46,883 bases of DNA. Origin: Nitrospira sp. (GTDB lineage: Bacteria; Nitrospirota; Nitrospiria; Nitrospirales; Nitrospiraceae). Below the pieces are notes generated by a model, which saw only the letters and a program-made list of their open reading frames with translations, made no database searches and had not been told where the DNA came from. Positions within the stretch are counted from its first letter, which is position 1. The number at the start of each line of letters is the position of its first letter. Shown in pieces: positions 33,242 through 40,873 of the stretch. Made by a program: the position numbers and the translations under genes. The stretch lies in NCBI GenBank assembly GCA_019636815.1, contig JAHBWT010000025.1:1-46883 (forward strand), given 5' to 3'.

Positions 33242-35131
33242 TTACTCCTCAATCGTCGAGATATCTCCAGGGTCTTGCCCCAGTTCTTTCGCTTTGAGTA
33301 CACGGCGCATGATCTTGCCGGACCGGGTTTTCGGGAGTGACGGGACGATGTCAATTTCAGACGGCACGCCGATCTTGCCCAATTCTTTCAGGACCTGATC
33401 CTTGATCGACTTGATCAGCTCCGGGCTTTCCTGCTCACCCTGCTTCAAGATGATGAAGGCCTTGATGGATTCACCGACCGTCTTGTGTGGCTTGCCGATC
33501 ACGGCGGCCTCCGCGACGGCAGGATGACTGACCAAGGCGCTTTCAACCTCAGCCGTTCCGAGCCGATTGCCGGCAACTTTAATCACGTCGTCGGCTCGGC
33601 CCATGAACCAGAAGTAGCCGTCTGCATCTTTATGACAGACATCGCCGGCCGAATAACAGTTAGGGATGGTGGACCAGTAGCTCTTGTACCGCTCGGGGTC
33701 CTTGTAAATGGTGCGCATCATGGCCGGCCAAGGCTTTTTGATCACGGCAAATCCGCCGGCGTTTGCCGGCAAGCTGTTTCCTTGGCGATCGACCACATCG
33801 GCCTCGATACCAAGGAACGGGCGCGTCGCCGAGCCAGGTTTGAGTGGCACGGTAGGAAGAGGCGTGATCAAGATCGATCCGGTTTCGGTCTGCCACCAGG
33901 TGTCCATGATGGGTTTATCTTCTCCTGTCGCACGATGAAACCATTCCCAGGCTTCCGGGTTGATCGGTTCTCCCACGCTGCCGAGGATGCGGAGTGTCGA
34001 GAGGTCGAATTTCTTGGGCCAGTCTTCGCCGTAACGCATGAGCAATCGGATGGCCGTCGGAGTCGTATAAAAAATCGAGACCCCATACCGTTCGATGAGA
34101 TCCCACCAACGACCAGGGTTCGGGTAGTCGGGTTTGCCCTCTGCGGCCAGAATCGTGGCGCCGTTGAGGAGCGGACCGTACACGATGTAACTGTGGCCTG
34201 TCACCCAGCCTGGGTCGGCCACGCAGAAGTAGACGTCGTCGTCTTTCAAGTCAAAGACATACTTCGTCGTTGTATAGGTGCCGACCATGTATCCGCCATG
34301 GACGTGGACTACACCCTTCGGCCGACCGGTCGTCCCGGAGGTGTAGAGAATGTAGAGCGGTGTCTCGGCATCCAAGTGCTCAGCGTCGCACACAGGCTGC
34401 TCGCTCTCGATCCACTCTCTCCACTCGATTTCTTTTGGAGCGATCAGGGGAGCCTGCTGGGTCTGGCGTCGCACGACAATCACGTGGTTGACGGAAGGAC
34501 AGGTTTTAAGCGCCTCGTCCACGACGGTCTTCACGTGAGTGGGCTTTCCACGGTCGAATCCGACATCGGCGGTGATCACGACCTTGGCTTCCGCATCGTT
34601 GACACGACTGGCGAGCGCTGGGGCGCTGAAGCCTGAATAGACGACGCTGTGAATGAGACCGATCCTGGCGCAAGCCAGCATCGCAATGACCTGTTCAGGA
34701 ATTTTCGGCAGGTAGATGGTGACCCGATCTCCCTTTTGAAGGCCCAGCTTTTTGAGAGCATTGGCACAGCGGTTGACCTGCCGATAGAGTTCGCCATAGG
34801 TGAATATGCGCTCCTGATTGTCTTCGCCTACCCAGATCAGCGCGACTTTGTTTTTGCGCCACGTCTTGACGTGACGATCGAGACAGTTATAGGCGATATT
34901 GCAGCGTGCACCGACAAACCATTTCGCCCAGGGGTAGTCCCATTCCAGAACCTTTTCCCAGGGAGTGAACCAGTGGAGTTCCTTGGCCGCCTGGCTCCAA
35001 AATGCTTCGGGGTCAGCGATGGATTTCTGGTACTCTGTCTCGTAATCCTGAATGTAGGCGGCGGCCGTTGTCTTTGCCGAGGGGTGATAGGTCCGACTTT
35101 CTTTCAGGAGCGTCTCAATCTTGTCACTCAT
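33242..35131 (-). CDS. acs: Acetyl-coenzyme A synthetase
   Basis: A 629-residue AMP-forming enzyme that makes acetyl-CoA from acetate, ATP and CoA. The ATP-phosphate motif is YTSGTTGRPKGV, the adenine-binding region is DTWWQTETGS, and the lysine that is acetylated in enteric bacteria is K606 in PKTRSGKIMRR. ATG 35131 is chosen because homologues start there and GGAG lies 11-13 bases upstream; the frame is open to 35206. The gene runs away from the caspase-like gene at 35324, with a 190-base region between them that must hold promoters for both. It ends just before the small membrane protein. Confidence 0.95.
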   Translation of the reverse strand: MSDKIETLLKESRTYHPSAKTTAAAYIQDYETEYQKSIADPEAFWSQAAKELHWFTPWEKVLEWDYPWAKWFVGARCNIAYNCLDRHVKTWRKNKVALIWVGEDNQERIFTYGELYRQVNRCANALKKLGLQKGDRVTIYLPKIPEQVIAMLACARIGLIHSVVYSGFSAPALASRVNDAEAKVVITADVGFDRGKPTHVKTVVDEALKTCPSVNHVIVVRRQTQQAPLIAPKEIEWREWIESEQPVCDAEHLDAETPLYILYTSGTTGRPKGVVHVHGGYMVGTYTTTKYVFDLKDDDVYFCVADPGWVTGHSYIVYGPLLNGATILAAEGKPDYPNPGRWWDLIERYGVSIFYTTPTAIRLLMRYGEDWPKKFDLSTLRILGSVGEPINPEAWEWFHRATGEDKPIMDTWWQTETGSILITPLPTVPLKPGSATRPFLGIEADVVDRQGNSLPANAGGFAVIKKPWPAMMRTIYKDPERYKSYWSTIPNCYSAGDVCHKDADGYFWFMGRADDVIKVAGNRLGTAEVESALVSHPAVAEAAVIGKPHKTVGESIKAFIILKQGEQESPELIKSIKDQVLKELGKIGVPSEIDIVPSLPKTRSGKIMRRVLKAKELGQDPGDISTIEE

Positions 35132-35323
35132 AGCGCGAGGATCTCCTTCAACAGAGCGGTCCATTGTGTGGGCCATGATTATGGAGAAAGCCGAAAGGAG
35201 CTGCAACCATCCATTTCCTCCTGAGCGTTATTGCCACGGTGATCGTGCCTGCCCTCTACTTGGTTTCTTGACACTGGCTTGGGTGGAAGATAGGCTGGCA
35301 GCATCAACGATGCCAAGCAAGTT

Positions 35324-36697
35324 ATGAAAAGGCCGTGGATTATTGTGCTGGCTCCTGTTCTGCTGGCTGCGCATGTGCTTGGTGCATTCCAATCTTCTTC
35401 CGTTTCCACCGTACATGCTCAATTAGGGAAGCCCGAAGGGCTCTATTACAAATCTTGGGCGATCGTGATCGGGATTGAAAACTATCTGGTGGCCCCGCCA
35501 ATTCCTGGAGCGATCACTGATGCGAGGAAAGTCGCCGAAGCATTCCGGCAATTGGGGTTTGATGAGGTCATTGAGTTCTACGACAAGGATGCCAGCTCAC
35601 GGCGCCTGCACCAGGTTTTCAACGACCTGTTGCCGAGAAAAGTCGGGCGCATGGATCGATTGGTGATGTTCTATGCGGGTCATACCGGTTCGAGGCAAGA
35701 TGCCGATGGGCAAGATCGAGGATATCTCGTGCCGTTTGATGCACCAGTTAACAACGCCACTAAGTCGGTCACGGTTGAACAGCTCAAGGAGTTTACCAGG
35801 CGGTCCGCCTCAAAGCACATCCTGTTGATCCTGGATGTCCCGATCTTTGGATGGGAAATGACCAAGCCGCAAGGGCTTACCCTGGAAGGGCGGTTGAGTC
35901 CAGAATCGGAGGCAGAGCGCCGCGCGGTTCAAGTGATTAGCGCGGCCAGTCAGGGCGAAGTGTCCGAGCGACCCGATAACAGGAGCCGCTTCGTTCACAC
36001 GCTCTTAACAGGACTGTCGGGAGCAGCGGATCTCGATAAGAATGGCTGGCTTATGGCTTCCGAACTCGGCACCTATCTCGCGCAACAAGTCGGAGCGGTT
36101 TCCAGCGGCAAGCAAATTCCGATGAGTCTACGCATAGAGGGAGATGGCGATACGGTGCTCATCGAAGGACGCCAATCGGCCTTGACGTTCGGCGCGGAGC
36201 CTCAGACGCCTGCCGAACGACAGCAACAGGCGAAGGTCCAATACGAACGCGCCTTTGCATTGCTCCAGGAAGGGAAGGCGATCGAAGAGGCGGTCGAACG
36301 GCTGGATCGCGCGATCGAGTACGATCCCACCTATGGCGACGCGTATGTCCTCAAGAGTTATGTTCGATTGGAAGTTCTTCCAAATCTTGATGAGGCCCTG
36401 CGTGCCGGTCTGCTTGCTGCGCAGTACGCGCCGGACAACCCCGATTCCTTTTACATGCTGGGTGTGATCTATGAAAAGCGCGGGAAGTTTCGGGATGCCG
36501 AGGCCACGTTCCAACAGGCGCTGCGCGTGAACAACGCCTACCAGGACGCCTACTTCGCGTTGGGGACGTTATACGCCGATCGACTCAACGAGCCGCAAAA
36601 GTCGGTCGAGGCGTTTCGCCGGTACGTCGAGCTGGGTGGCACCCATGATCGAGCTCGTGCAGCTGTGGATCAAGCCGATCGCACACCAAAGCCTTAG
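35324..36697 (+). CDS. Caspase-fold (C14) protein with TPR repeats, catalytic Cys lost
   Basis: A 457-residue secreted or periplasmic protein. After a signal-type N terminus (residues 1-33) comes a peptidase C14 domain: strand SWAIVIGIENY, the histidine motif FYAGHTG (H120), and at the cysteine strand ILLILDVPIFG where active members have LLLDACYSG. The cysteine position is P173, so the site cannot act as a cysteine protease. Three or more TPR repeats follow (about residues 285-450: AKVQYERAFALLQEGKAIEE, NLDEALRAGLLAAQYAPDNP, RDAEATFQQALRVNNAYQDA). It probably works as a binding scaffold. It precedes a lipoprotein operon on the same strand. Confidence 0.82.
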   Translation: MKRPWIIVLAPVLLAAHVLGAFQSSSVSTVHAQLGKPEGLYYKSWAIVIGIENYLVAPPIPGAITDARKVAEAFRQLGFDEVIEFYDKDASSRRLHQVFNDLLPRKVGRMDRLVMFYAGHTGSRQDADGQDRGYLVPFDAPVNNATKSVTVEQLKEFTRRSASKHILLILDVPIFGWEMTKPQGLTLEGRLSPESEAERRAVQVISAASQGEVSERPDNRSRFVHTLLTGLSGAADLDKNGWLMASELGTYLAQQVGAVSSGKQIPMSLRIEGDGDTVLIEGRQSALTFGAEPQTPAERQQQAKVQYERAFALLQEGKAIEEAVERLDRAIEYDPTYGDAYVLKSYVRLEVLPNLDEALRAGLLAAQYAPDNPDSFYMLGVIYEKRGKFRDAEATFQQALRVNNAYQDAYFALGTLYADRLNEPQKSVEAFRRYVELGGTHDRARAAVDQADRTPKP

Positions 36698-36864
36698 TCA
36701 GTTTCTCCCCCTTTGAGATATCCCAGCCCGATCTTCACTGCGCGACGTGTAATTTCCGCCCAGCGTGTTTGGGGGTAGGCCGACAATATGGCGGCAGCGG
36801 TGGGGTCCTGGATATCAAGGTGACGAATGCGAAGCATGCCGTCTTCAATTTGAATGTCTGCCAC
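36694..36864 (-). CDS. Small protein, 56 residues, function unknown
   Basis: Start GTG 36864 has an excellent AAGGAGG ribosome site 4-5 bases upstream. It reads MADIQIEDGMLRIRHLDIQ, then DPTAAAILSAYPQTRWAEIT, and ends RRAVKIGLGYLKGGETD. The mix of charged and hydrophobic residues is protein-like. Its stop codon overlaps the stop of the caspase-like gene by 4 bases in tail-to-tail orientation. I do not recognise the family; a role near the neighbouring operon is not shown. Confidence 0.62.
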   Translation of the reverse strand: MADIQIEDGMLRIRHLDIQDPTAAAILSAYPQTRWAEITRRAVKIGLGYLKGGETD

Positions 36865-36913: not shown

Positions 36914-36942
36914 TTGACTGATTAAAAGTCACATGGTAGCAT
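36914..36942 (+). promoter_or_regulatory. Promoter of the lipoprotein operon
   Basis: TTGACT (36914-36919) and TAGCAT (36937-36942) are separated by exactly 17 bases. Transcription would start near 36949, about 63 bases before the ATG at 37012. The match is as good as any in the window and the same -10 hexamer occurs at 3938. Confidence 0.6.
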
Positions 36943-37011
36943 AGTTTCACCGTTTTTACCGGTATTCTGTACGCGCGGAACCCTTCGTATTCACCGAGAG
37001 GAGGATTGTTT

Positions 37012-37578
37012 ATGATCAGGTCGCAACTGGTTCACTCAAGGCTGGTCGGCCTCTGTCTTACGGTCCTGCTGATGGTGACGCTTGTGGCTTGCGGTGGTCC
37101 TCCCAAATGGGTCCAGCATGGATCCGGAGCGTTCAATGAAAAAGACCGCAAAGCCTTTTATGGAGTGGGTGCCGTAAGCGGAGTGCGCAATGCCCCGCTG
37201 GCATGGGACACGGCGGAGAATCGCGGCAGGGCAGAGATCGCCAAGACCTTCGAAACCTATACCGGATATCTGATGAGAGATTATGCGGCCTCGACGACGG
37301 CAGGAGATTTCACTCGGAATACGGAAGAGCAAAATGTCGAGCGAGCGATCAAGACCATCACGACCACCACACTCAGCGGAGTGCGGAAAGTCGATCAGTA
37401 TCTGGATCCCAAGACCAATACGTATTATGTCTTGACCAAGTTAAGTTTGGAGGATATGAAGAATAACTTGGAACAGGCCAAAGAGCTCAATGCCCAGGTT
37501 CGCGACTTTGTGCGAAAGAACGCCGATCGTCTTTTTGAGCGTTTGGAGCAGGAAGAGGAAAAGCGAGGCGTTCGTTAA
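37012..37578 (+). CDS. LPP20-family lipoprotein
   Basis: A 188-residue lipoprotein. The signal peptide ends LVAC with lipidated C27. The mature part opens GGPPKWVQHGSGAFN and holds the LPP20 core, with a glycine-rich turn (FYGVGAVSG) and an alanine-rich helix (AENRGRAEIAKTFETYTGYL), then a coiled-coil end (LEDMKNNLEQAKELNAQVRD). ATG 37012 follows GAGGAGG at 8 bases; TTG at 37006 is too close to that site. It is the first gene of a four-gene operon of lipoproteins. LPP20 proteins are outer-membrane-linked, but their biochemical role is not settled. Confidence 0.85.
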   Translation: MIRSQLVHSRLVGLCLTVLLMVTLVACGGPPKWVQHGSGAFNEKDRKAFYGVGAVSGVRNAPLAWDTAENRGRAEIAKTFETYTGYLMRDYAASTTAGDFTRNTEEQNVERAIKTITTTTLSGVRKVDQYLDPKTNTYYVLTKLSLEDMKNNLEQAKELNAQVRDFVRKNADRLFERLEQEEEKRGVR

Positions 37579-37625
37579 ACGTTGCTGACAGTCATGAGAT
37601 GGAAACTTCTTCGCGGAGGCGTTCT

Positions 37626-38237
37626 GTGATTCAGAAGTGTAGTCGTTCGCTTATTGCCGCGGCGAGTGTCGCCTTTACCTTGTCCGGCTGCGGTCACGAA
37701 ACGAAGGTCACGCGAGTCGATACAGGGGTGGTCACTGACTTGAGTGGTCGGTGGAACGATACGGATTCCCGGATGGTGGCGGAAGCGATGGTCAAGGATG
37801 CCTTGCAATATCCGTGGCTCGGCAATTTTGAAAAGGCGAAACAGCGTCAGCCCGTCGTCGTCGTCGGCACCGTGTTGAATAGCAGTCATGAACACATCAG
37901 CGTGCAAACCTTCATCACGGATTTGCAGCGCGAACTCACCAATTCTCAAAAGGTCACGTTCGTAGCCGGCAAAGGTGAGCGTGACGAGGTTCGGGCTGAA
38001 CGGAAAGAGCAAGCGATCTACGCGCTTGAAGATACTCAGAAGTCTCCTGGGAAAGAGACTGGAGCCGATTTCATGATGAAGGGCACGATTGCCACCATTC
38101 TCGACGAAGCCGGCGGGACCAAAGCCGTCTTCTATCAGGTTGATCTTCAGATGATCGATCTGGAGAGTAATGCCAAGGTTTGGTATGGGCAAAAGAAGAT
38201 CAAGAAGGTGGTCGAAAAGAAACGGACAGTCTTTTAA
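37626..38237 (+). CDS. LpoB-like lipoprotein (PBP activator family)
   Basis: A 203-residue lipoprotein whose lipobox is LSGC with C22. The mature domain (VVTDLSGRWNDTDSRMVAEAMVKDALQ, split here: VVTDLSGRWNDTDSRMVAE) carries the family arrangement of a strand, then the long helix, and a VVVGTVLNSSHEHI strand followed by DLQRELTNSQKV. In E. coli LpoB reaches through the wall to activate the synthase PBP1B; whether this homologue does so is unknown. GTG 37626 has a GGAGG site 6-7 bases upstream and gives a proper signal peptide, so I prefer it over ATG 37599, which lacks one. Confidence 0.83.
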   Translation: MIQKCSRSLIAAASVAFTLSGCGHETKVTRVDTGVVTDLSGRWNDTDSRMVAEAMVKDALQYPWLGNFEKAKQRQPVVVVGTVLNSSHEHISVQTFITDLQRELTNSQKVTFVAGKGERDEVRAERKEQAIYALEDTQKSPGKETGADFMMKGTIATILDEAGGTKAVFYQVDLQMIDLESNAKVWYGQKKIKKVVEKKRTVF

Positions 38238-38252
38238 GTTCCGCGGACTCTG

Positions 38253-39737
38253 TTGAGACCATTCCTCCCACGGTTTGCCCCCAGGGGTTCTGTGCGGCTG
38301 GGCGTTGCCATTCCCATCTCATCGATCCTGTCCATTTGCGCACTCTTTCTCTTGACCAGTTGTGGTCCCTCGGTCAATCGCTACCTCCTCATCGAGCAAA
38401 GCTTGCATGCCGGTGATCCGCACCGGGCTGCAACGATCGTTGAGCAGACCGAACGAGAGTATGGCGCGAGAGGTCGGCTTCTGTATGCGATGGATCGGGG
38501 TATGGTGCTGCAGTTGGCCGGCCAGTACGAGCAAAGTAACGCGGCGCTGGATCGAGCGGAAGAAGACATTGAACGGCTCTATACCAGGAGCATCCGCACC
38601 GAAACAGCCGCCTTTCTGACCAATGACAACGCCTTACCCTACGAAGGGGACGCATACGAACACGTGATGGTCAATGTCGTCAAGGCGCTGAACTATGCAG
38701 TACAGGGTCGAGTCAACGAAGCGTTGGTGGAGGTGCGTCGTGTCGACCACCGGCTGAATGTGCTTGGTGATCGGGTCAAGGATAAGGACAAGTACCGAAA
38801 TGACGGATTCGCTCGATACTTGAGCGGGATCTTGTACGAAGCAGCCGGAGATCTCAATAATGCGTTCATCGCCTATCGTAATGCATATGAGGCCTATGGT
38901 GCCATGGGAGGATGGTCGAAGATGTCGTTTCCTCCCTCCCTCCGCGCCGATCTCCTACGTACGACCGAGGCCCTCGGGCTGACGACGGAATTCGAGTCAT
39001 ACCGACAAACTTTCCCGGATGTGGTCTGGGAGCCTTCGGGTTCCGGTGAGCAATCCGCTCAAGTCGTCATGATCAGCTATAATGGGCGGGCTCCACGAAA
39101 AGAGGATCTGTTGCTCGATTTGCCGATCAGTCTTGATGCCGTACAGTTAGTTTTGCTAAATAGAGGAGTTTTCCATCAGCCCTATGGGAGGGATCGCGTT
39201 GTCGACAGCGTACTCTATGGGCTCAACGGGCGGGTGGTTCGAGTGGCGCTTCCGCAATTGGTTCGACAAAAAACGCGAGTCGCGTCCGAAGACCTGACGT
39301 TGACGGATTCGCGCGGTCGCTCCGTGACCGTACGATCGGAGCTGACTCAAAACGTGACGGCGCTGGCAGAGAAGAGTCTTTCAGAGCGTTTGCCGGCGAT
39401 GACGGTGAAGGCCCTCGCTCGAGCCGCGACCAAATTCGCAATGGCGGAAGGCATTACGCGAGGAGCTCAGCATGCGGCGGGCAGAGATGCCGCTCCGTGG
39501 GTAGGACTTCTTGTGGAATTGCTCACCAAGGGAATCGCGGTGGCCTCGGAAGAAGCCGACAAGCGAAGCTGGCAGACCTTACCTGACGAAATTCACGTCG
39601 CCAGGGCATGGGTCTCACCCGGTCAGTATCACGTGTCTATTCAACCGTCAGGACACCGATTGATGGGGAAGGACGGGCAAGCGATATCGTTGGTTGCCGG
39701 TCAGACCATGTTCATCATCCGGCGTGTGGTGCAATGA
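38253..39737 (+). CDS. COG3014-like lipoprotein
   Basis: A 494-residue lipoprotein starting at TTG 38253; GTG 38292 with AGGGG just upstream is an alternative and gives a shorter signal peptide ending LTSC. The mature part has a helical, TPR-like region (residues 50-260, DPHRAATIVEQTEREYGARG, then YEQSNAALDRAEEDIERL), a beta-rich C-terminal part, and a conserved motif VSPGQYHVSIQPSG near the end. Proteins of this type occur beside LpoB- and LPP20-like genes in other genomes, which matches the neighbours here. Its function is unknown. The ATG of the next gene overlaps its stop by 4 bases. Confidence 0.78.
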   Translation: MRPFLPRFAPRGSVRLGVAIPISSILSICALFLLTSCGPSVNRYLLIEQSLHAGDPHRAATIVEQTEREYGARGRLLYAMDRGMVLQLAGQYEQSNAALDRAEEDIERLYTRSIRTETAAFLTNDNALPYEGDAYEHVMVNVVKALNYAVQGRVNEALVEVRRVDHRLNVLGDRVKDKDKYRNDGFARYLSGILYEAAGDLNNAFIAYRNAYEAYGAMGGWSKMSFPPSLRADLLRTTEALGLTTEFESYRQTFPDVVWEPSGSGEQSAQVVMISYNGRAPRKEDLLLDLPISLDAVQLVLLNRGVFHQPYGRDRVVDSVLYGLNGRVVRVALPQLVRQKTRVASEDLTLTDSRGRSVTVRSELTQNVTALAEKSLSERLPAMTVKALARAATKFAMAEGITRGAQHAAGRDAAPWVGLLVELLTKGIAVASEEADKRSWQTLPDEIHVARAWVSPGQYHVSIQPSGHRLMGKDGQAISLVAGQTMFIIRRVVQ

Positions 39738-40873
39738 TCAACTGGCGTGGATCGATTTTGAGGCAGGGGGTGGTGATCGGTCTTTGTCTGTGCGGTGTCG
39801 TGCCTGTCGCCGGTGGTTGCACCTGGGTGCTGGGAAAGGGGAAACCCACATGGGTCGATGGTCGAACCTTGGACTATCCCTCCGCGCACTATCTGACCGG
39901 GGTCGGGCAAGCCGACAATCGGAGCCGCGCGGAGGACCGGGCCTATGCGGCGGTGGCGCGCATTTTTACAACGGCGGTGACTTCGCAGGCGAAAGACCGG
40001 GAGTTCTATTCGATCGTTGAGAATCGCGGCATTGCAAACGTCGAACGGCGGTTGACGATCGACAGCGTGACGAAAGTCTCGACCGAGAAGGTGCTCGAGA
40101 ATGTCAGGGTCATGGACAATTGGTACGATTCAGACAACGAGTTGCACTATGCCCTGGCCGTGATGAATCGGTCTCAAGCTGAAGCGTCGTTGATGAACAA
40201 ACTCCAGGAATTGGATCGGGCGATCACCGCGGAGATCGCGAAAGCTCGGCAGGCGGACGACAAGCTTGTCAAGGTTCGTGCGCTCCTCAAGGCCGGTCGA
40301 AACACGATTCTGCGAGAGGCGTATAACACGGATTTGCGCGTGATTCGCCACAGCGGGCAGGGAATCCCCTCTGCATATCGACCGAACGAATTGTTCAGCG
40401 AGTTGGAGCAGTTTCTTGCTGTGAATCTGGCGCTCGCCGCACACGTGTCCGGCGATCAAGCGGAGCTGGCTCAGCATGCGCTGGTCGAAGGGCTTCTTCG
40501 AGAGGGGCTGCATGTGAGGACACAGGCGAGTGAGGCTGACACTGGCTCTCCGGAGTTACTTGTTCGAGGCACGGTGCGGCTCTTTCCCGTCAAGATGGGC
40601 GATCCGCATTTCAAATACGTCCGATGGTGCAGCGATTTTGAAGTTCTGAATGTCGTCACGGGGCAAGTCATTGGGGCGGTTGCCCGAGGAGGAAAGGAGG
40701 GCCATTTGACAGAAAGTGAAGCGGTGGCGAAGACGCTTCGCGTCATGCAGCAAGAAGTTTCGTCCGAAGTGGCGAAGGCGATCGCCGCACAGATCCTCGA
40801 CGACGATGCGTTACCCGTCATGACTGCGATGCCGGTCGGTTGTCCACGAGAAGAGTCAACGGTGAGTCCGTGA
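39734..40873 (+). CDS. Lipoprotein with LPP20-like N-terminal domain
   Basis: A 379-residue lipoprotein; the lipobox is AGGC with C29. Residues 35-150 resemble LPP20 (PSAHYLTGVGQADNRSRAED, then an alanine-rich helix and NWYDSDNELHYALAVMNRSQ). The second half (about residues 230-370) has a beta-alpha pattern with VRGTVRLFPVKMGDPHFKY and a last helix before a Cys-containing tail. It is the last gene of the lipoprotein operon, in ATGA overlap with the previous gene. The TA pair follows 31 bases later under its own palindrome. Function is unknown; like the first gene it probably faces the periplasm from the outer membrane. Confidence 0.77.
   Translation: MINWRGSILRQGVVIGLCLCGVVPVAGGCTWVLGKGKPTWVDGRTLDYPSAHYLTGVGQADNRSRAEDRAYAAVARIFTTAVTSQAKDREFYSIVENRGIANVERRLTIDSVTKVSTEKVLENVRVMDNWYDSDNELHYALAVMNRSQAEASLMNKLQELDRAITAEIAKARQADDKLVKVRALLKAGRNTILREAYNTDLRVIRHSGQGIPSAYRPNELFSELEQFLAVNLALAAHVSGDQAELAQHALVEGLLREGLHVRTQASEADTGSPELLVRGTVRLFPVKMGDPHFKYVRWCSDFEVLNVVTGQVIGAVARGGKEGHLTESEAVAKTLRVMQQEVSSEVAKAIAAQILDDDALPVMTAMPVGCPREESTVSP

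Follow-up and report, generated by a model that had tools for sequence, protein, structure and literature searches.

A family-wide putative pseudo-orthocaspase of Nitrospira with a retained catalytic histidine and a lost catalytic cysteine

The window, the whole stretch of 46,883 nucleotides from Nitrospira sp. analysed here, encodes a protein which, judged from its sequence, is a pseudo-caspase and not a cysteine protease. It represents a new, family-wide and putative pseudo-orthocaspase with an unusual pattern, in which the catalytic histidine is frozen and the cysteine position wanders among non-thiol residues. The protein probably serves as an exported, periplasmic binding module that holds a partner without cutting it. 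The open reading frame is intact, occupies exactly positions 35324–36697 of the plus strand and gives a product of 457 amino acids with the following features:

35324..36697, plus strand: pseudo-caspase (pseudo-orthocaspase)/TPR gene (ORF call, Pfam, orthologue alignment)
35324..35419, plus strand: signal peptide-like N-terminus, residues 1–32 (sequence features; cleavage inferred from sequence)
35453..36124, plus strand: caspase domain, Pfam Peptidase_C14, residues 44–267 (Pfam and fold comparison)
35681..35683, plus strand: H120, equivalent of the catalytic histidine (orthologue alignment)
35840..35842, plus strand: P173, position of the catalytic cysteine (orthologue alignment)
35852..35923, plus strand: post-active-site linker, residues 177–200 (invariant W177, E188-G189-R190, E194 and R200; largely of low model confidence)
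36029..36064, plus strand: loop DLDKNGWLMASE, residues 236–247, which we liken to an EF-hand (D236, G241 and E247 also common in sequences with a His-Cys dyad; W242 lineage-specific)
36209..36682, plus strand: TPR region, residues 296–453 (Pfam, model; variably present among orthologues)

The Pfam search placed Peptidase_C14 (PF00656) over residues 44–267 (E = 4.4e-16), together with several TPR models extending up to residue 438. The AlphaFold2 model (mean pLDDT 78.4, pTM 0.52) was built from the 34-row alignment A1, which leaves out the partial copy of G033 (a run of X in its translation) that is included in the 35-row alignment. At VIA Z 20–23, residues ~37–286 of this model match the solved structures of caspases, paracaspases and metacaspases, so a caspase fold is predicted for the protein. 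The best structural match is MALT1 (3uo8; Z 23.3, 204 residues, 2.4 Å), followed by metacaspases (6w8s, Z 21.2), caspases and Geobacter GSU0716 (3bij, Z 20.5), with only ~17–19% identity to MALT1 and 6w8s. MALT1 paracaspase and the metacaspases are active proteases with a catalytic cysteine. The Pfam match spans most of C14, and the alignment of the model with MALT1 reaches residue 281. No caspase was found among the best 60 rows of a PDB sequence search, nor among those of a PDB profile search with the alignment, all of these rows being TPR, other helical-repeat or designed proteins; the relation to solved caspase structures thus comes from the fold comparison and not from the PDB searches.

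H120 lies within YAGHTG (codon CAT) and P173 within ILDVPIFGWE (codon CCG), and the two residues align with the catalytic histidine and cysteine of all 17 sequences compared that possess the His-Cys (H-C) dyad, in agreement with the original prediction that H120 is kept and P173 replaces the nucleophile. Active C14 members have the cysteine after the LDxC strand, where P173 is found here, while the catalytic histidine is present as H120. The homology to C14 p20 combined with a substituted dyad, the histidine kept and the cysteine lost, is typical of pseudo-orthocaspases. An intact cysteine elsewhere in the active site was considered and rejected, the whole 457-residue protein being devoid of cysteine. 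From 150 matches, 111 distinct sequences were obtained, of which 109 were left once contained ones had been removed. In this set of orthologues, drawn from Nitrospira and the rest of its family, the catalytic histidine position is H in 109/109, and the cysteine position is occupied by P (50), A (40), N (13), G (4) or S (2) and never by cysteine; all 109 caspase cores together hold one cysteine, at residue 268 of one sequence. A maximum-likelihood tree from which that column was omitted requires at least seven changes between these five residues, and position 173 ranks as the 50th most variable of 244 core positions. Absence from 109 of 109 distinct orthologues places the cysteine loss beyond chance, and supports the earlier view of a non-proteolytic pseudo-caspase. 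The question raised at that time, whether the Cys-to-Pro change is lineage-wide, receives a divided answer: the loss of cysteine is, but proline is one state only, since the position varies freely among non-thiol residues.

The loss of the cysteine is thus assigned, on the aligned sequences, as real, lineage-wide and fixed across the Nitrospira family. A contig scan returned 80 loci, all from Nitrospira, Nitrospiraceae, Nitrospirae or Nitrospirota, with identities of 70% to the orthologue of N. moscoviensis and 58% to that of Ca. N. defluvii. Of 35 same-genus genomes, 34 encode the orthologue, the single miss being G028 (80% complete), as do 46 of the 47 family genomes listed in the phylum sample. 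None of the 24 same-order genomes outside the family encodes it, only weaker caspase or TPR matches being found there. In the phylum sample, 5 of 151 genomes outside the family yielded a match at E ≤ 1e-15 (best 4.2e-34), and the matches from these five align as H-C. One locus (L057; G034:C69:52611–56093) carries a tandem duplication of the pseudo-caspase, and the small convergent gene described below is matched there twice.

The N-terminus resembles a signal peptide, with a hydrophobic segment at residues 6–20 (Kyte-Doolittle 2.47) followed by a strongly conserved, signal peptidase-like A-x-A/Q junction. Residue 32 (-1) is alanine in 105/108 rows, position -3 is A or V in 100/108, and residue 33 is glutamine in 107/108. 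A signal peptidase I site before Q33 is therefore probable, and the pseudo-caspase is apparently exported.

Strong purifying constraint acts on both parts of the gene: among pairs with a caspase-part dS between 0.1 and 1.2, the median pairwise dN/dS is 0.098 over 672 pairs for the caspase part and 0.099 over 437 pairs for the TPR part. Of the 244 core positions, 40 show no variation among the 109 orthologues. The H-C C14 proteins of the family and phylum share the fold, and S44, W45, G119, H120, P137, D139, H165, D236, G241 and E247 are found in at least half of the 17 compared. These proteins have cysteine at position 173 and as a rule lack the W177, the EGR linker and the W242 of the Nitrospira lineage. 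The frozen residues specific to this lineage, relative to the same 17 sequences, are E84, P104-R105, V107-G108-R109, W177, E188-G189-R190, E194, R200 and W242, with a further set at G273/G275/D276/E281/G282. Several of them sit directly after the dead strand, in the linker, where residues 179–199 fall below pLDDT 50 in the model. With lineage-specific residues frozen just behind the dead position, the old active-site rim looks reused rather than decayed, consistent with an abandoned nucleophile whose surroundings were put to new use. Residues 66 and 171, mapped by motif, are taken by us as the acidic pocket (equivalents of Asp95/Asp211 of TbMC2). Both are aspartate in the source protein (D66 and D171); by this motif-based mapping, both are acidic in 65/108 rows, and each of the 108 rows has an acid in one or both places.

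The TPR part is present in 92 of the 109 copies and missing in 17, with at least six changes on the tree, and proline occupies position 173 in every TPR-less copy. Seven of these 17 loci retain, at or beyond the stop, DNA that matches the beginning of the TPR-side region, which argues for TPR loss and not gain. The TPR-less loci are L027–L037, L039–L042, L118 and L120. Because of these 17 copies, the caspase fold is the constant part of the protein, the TPRs are ruled out as an essential part, and scaffolding by TPRs cannot be the core conserved function. The well-preserved TPR array described in the original prediction accordingly holds for the source copy and not for the whole lineage.

Binding rather than cutting is probable because none of the relatives examined has kept the cysteine, yet selection on the gene is strong. 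In the proposed mechanism, the signal peptide would be removed and the mature protein would fold in the periplasm, where the former cleft (H120, at least one acidic pocket residue and the linker residues W177, EGR188-190, E194 and R200) may bind a peptide or protein partner that stays uncut; the C-terminal TPR array would provide a second, dispensable binding surface in most lineages. Binding through the old cleft and a scaffold role are accordingly put forward as candidate functions. The signalling role considered in the original prediction is likewise hypothetical. Against such a binding module stand the partial erosion of the pocket, whose two acids are not kept together in all rows, and the low model confidence of the linker. 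Conservation of this strength is compatible, too, with a role that is structural only or with a non-canonical activity. LPP20 and LpoB are candidate partners, by position only, and the neighbouring genes are as follows:

33242..35206, minus strand: acetyl-CoA synthetase, divergent upstream neighbour (Pfam, locus comparison)
36694..36864, minus strand: small convergent gene of no known family, 56 aa (conserved, 75/80 loci)
37006..37578, plus strand: LPP20-like lipoprotein, conserved downstream neighbour (just under the Pfam cut-off; locus comparison)
37599..38237, plus strand: LpoB-like lipoprotein (Pfam/NCBIfam search, locus comparison)
38253..39737, plus strand: predicted lipoprotein, 494 aa, presumably COG3014-like, with no Pfam or NCBIfam family (family searches, locus comparison)
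39608..40873, plus strand: second LPP20 lipoprotein, the start of which may be 39734 (ORF, Pfam, locus comparison)

A rather unlikely alternative is that the protein is an envelope assembly factor for the LPP20-LpoB lipoproteins, with the TPRs and the dead cleft holding the lipoproteins or a cell-wall synthase; a shared assembly role of this kind is conjectural. It would account for the gene order, as among loci with enough flank LPP20 lies downstream in 66/72, LpoB in 64/71, the 494-aa lipoprotein in 61/65 and the second LPP20 in 59/63, and it would agree with the apparent export of the pseudo-caspase, which it shares with the LPP20-LpoB lipoproteins. Against it, a small opposite-strand gene is located between the pseudo-caspase, whose end its own end overlaps by 4 bases, and LPP20. 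This gene gave a tblastn match in 75/80 loci and lies within reach downstream in 69/75, and such a conserved opposite-strand gene makes one operon, or a transcript shared by the pseudo-caspase and the LPP20-LpoB genes, unlikely. The lipoprotein operon was thus correctly placed next to the gene by the original prediction, the LPP20-LpoB genes nearly always adjoining it, but the arrangement at 69/75 loci speaks against a common transcript. Neither promoter-like sites (3 found against 2.7 expected by chance, one of them at 36914–36942 before LPP20) nor terminator-like sites (3 against 5.0) gave evidence in the scanned stretch. At L050, L055, L056 and L089 the gene is intact, but the 8 kb after it lack the lipoprotein cluster, which is further off at L052 and L078. 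The TPRs on which the assembly role would partly depend are dispensable, and the acetyl-CoA synthetase, found upstream in 74/75 loci with enough flank, is an equally conserved neighbour, so that the co-location may reflect stable gene order only. Published work on an LPP20-LpoB-type lipoprotein cluster was searched for, and only an H. pylori lipoprotein paper surfaced. The small convergent gene is itself divergent from the LPP20-LpoB genes, and its 56-aa product is predicted to form a beta-hairpin and two helices (pLDDT 82.6), with no fold match at E ≤ 0.001 and no Pfam or NCBIfam family.

A more doubtful possibility is that R190 of the EGR motif, kept in 109/109, docks in the protein's own former specificity pocket. 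Such a self-occupied pseudo-active site would lock the caspase fold, as it is before processing, in a closed form that cannot be cleaved; if true, nitrite-oxidising bacteria would have in their envelope a binding module that is either structural or switchable.

It is improbable that the protein acts in trans on active orthocaspases of its own cell, as their regulator or decoy. Caspase-fold pseudo-enzymes such as c-FLIP, which regulates caspase-8, are capable of this. c-FLIP-L has a caspase fold with a dead site and is a cytosolic metazoan regulator, and chain B of the caspase-8:c-FLIP-L complex (3h11) aligns with the model at Z 20.7; unlike c-FLIP-L, the Nitrospira protein is apparently exported and is present where no active C14 protein was detected. 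PF00656 was searched at E ≤ 1e-4 in 23 same-genus genomes, 21 of them at least 80% complete, and the dyads were read on the fetched matches. H-C C14 proteins are encoded in 11 of these 21 genomes, and several H-C sequences have hydrophobic N-termini. At the same threshold, 7 of the 21 (G000, G004, G006, G007, G008, G012 and G020) have no detected H-C C14 protein and the pseudo-caspase gene is intact in them, and the dyad reading leaves 3 (G002, G015 and G021) undecidable. A pure caspase decoy is thus disfavoured, as a decoy left with no target would not be maintained. Genomes with the pseudo-caspase and no detectable active caspase offer clean settings for the study of dead-caspase function. 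The source genome encodes three caspase-fold proteins, all without the dyad, namely the pseudo-caspase (H-P), L004 (R-S) and L007 (Q-N), the genome being 95% complete so that a missed gene is possible. L004 (G000:C67, 716 aa) and L007 (G000:C122, 628 aa) carry a C-terminal caspase-fold domain. Both score just below the Pfam C14 cut-off, which renders their dyad columns less certain, and both are among the rows that built the model used for the dyad reading. Their genus relatives read R-S, Q-S, Q-M or H-K.

Distinctly improbable is a non-canonical activity in which a metal, a substrate group or a second residue works together with H120. The invariance of the histidine despite the missing cysteine would suit it, as would the R, Q or H found at the histidine position of the other dead caspase-fold proteins of the genus and the invariant H165, W177 and E194. 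H165, though, is common to the H-C sequences too and is therefore not a new catalytic residue, and position 173 may hold any of P, A, N, G or S, with serine in 2/109 only.

That the gene is a decaying pseudogene, as the 17 TPR-less copies and the TPR remnants interrupted by stops at seven of their loci might suggest, is extremely improbable, decay being strongly disfavoured by a dN/dS of ~0.1, the 40/244 invariant positions and near-universal retention. The chance that the missing cysteine is a sequencing or assembly error is negligible, for although the source is a draft assembly of 143 contigs, the copies on two complete chromosomes, NZ_CP011801 of N. moscoviensis and FP929003 of Ca. N. defluvii, lack the cysteine as well, and the alignment with homologues called for by the original prediction leaves no room for such an error.

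Among 9,994 orthocaspases, 858 were classified as pseudo-orthocaspases, 90% of them from Alphaproteobacteria or Cyanobacteria, with YS, YA, FS (with TPR), QC, HA, YN and YG among the types named (PMC6426788); the main text of that paper contains no occurrence of 'nitrospir'. Dyad conservation in Nitrospirae is given as 57% in the bulk statistics of PMC3501461, the accessible part of which does not describe the pseudo-caspase, and a search of the literature on Nitrospira and caspases found no paper on it. According to PMC6426788 and PMC7889975, bacterial pseudo-orthocaspases likewise possess a C14 domain, a substituted dyad and clade conservation, and some have TPRs. Some cyanobacteria are reported to have a single, probably inactive orthocaspase (PMC5756287), and Synechocystis and Synechococcus carry single dead orthocaspases without an active partner (PMC6426788, PMC7889975). 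Deletion of the dead SyOC of Synechocystis is reported to alter oxidative-stress tolerance (PMC7889975), which indicates that a dead orthocaspase can have a function. The Nitrospira protein suggests that such a role is not tied to photosynthesis, and that a caspase-fold role without thiol catalysis is stable over a family of chemolithotrophic nitrite oxidisers. Compared with the pseudo-orthocaspases covered by these sources, it always keeps the histidine and replaces the cysteine by P, A, N, G or S. The alphaproteobacterial FS type has Phe/Ser at the dyad and a TPR part, whereas the Nitrospira protein has His/Pro and a TPR part that some copies have lost.
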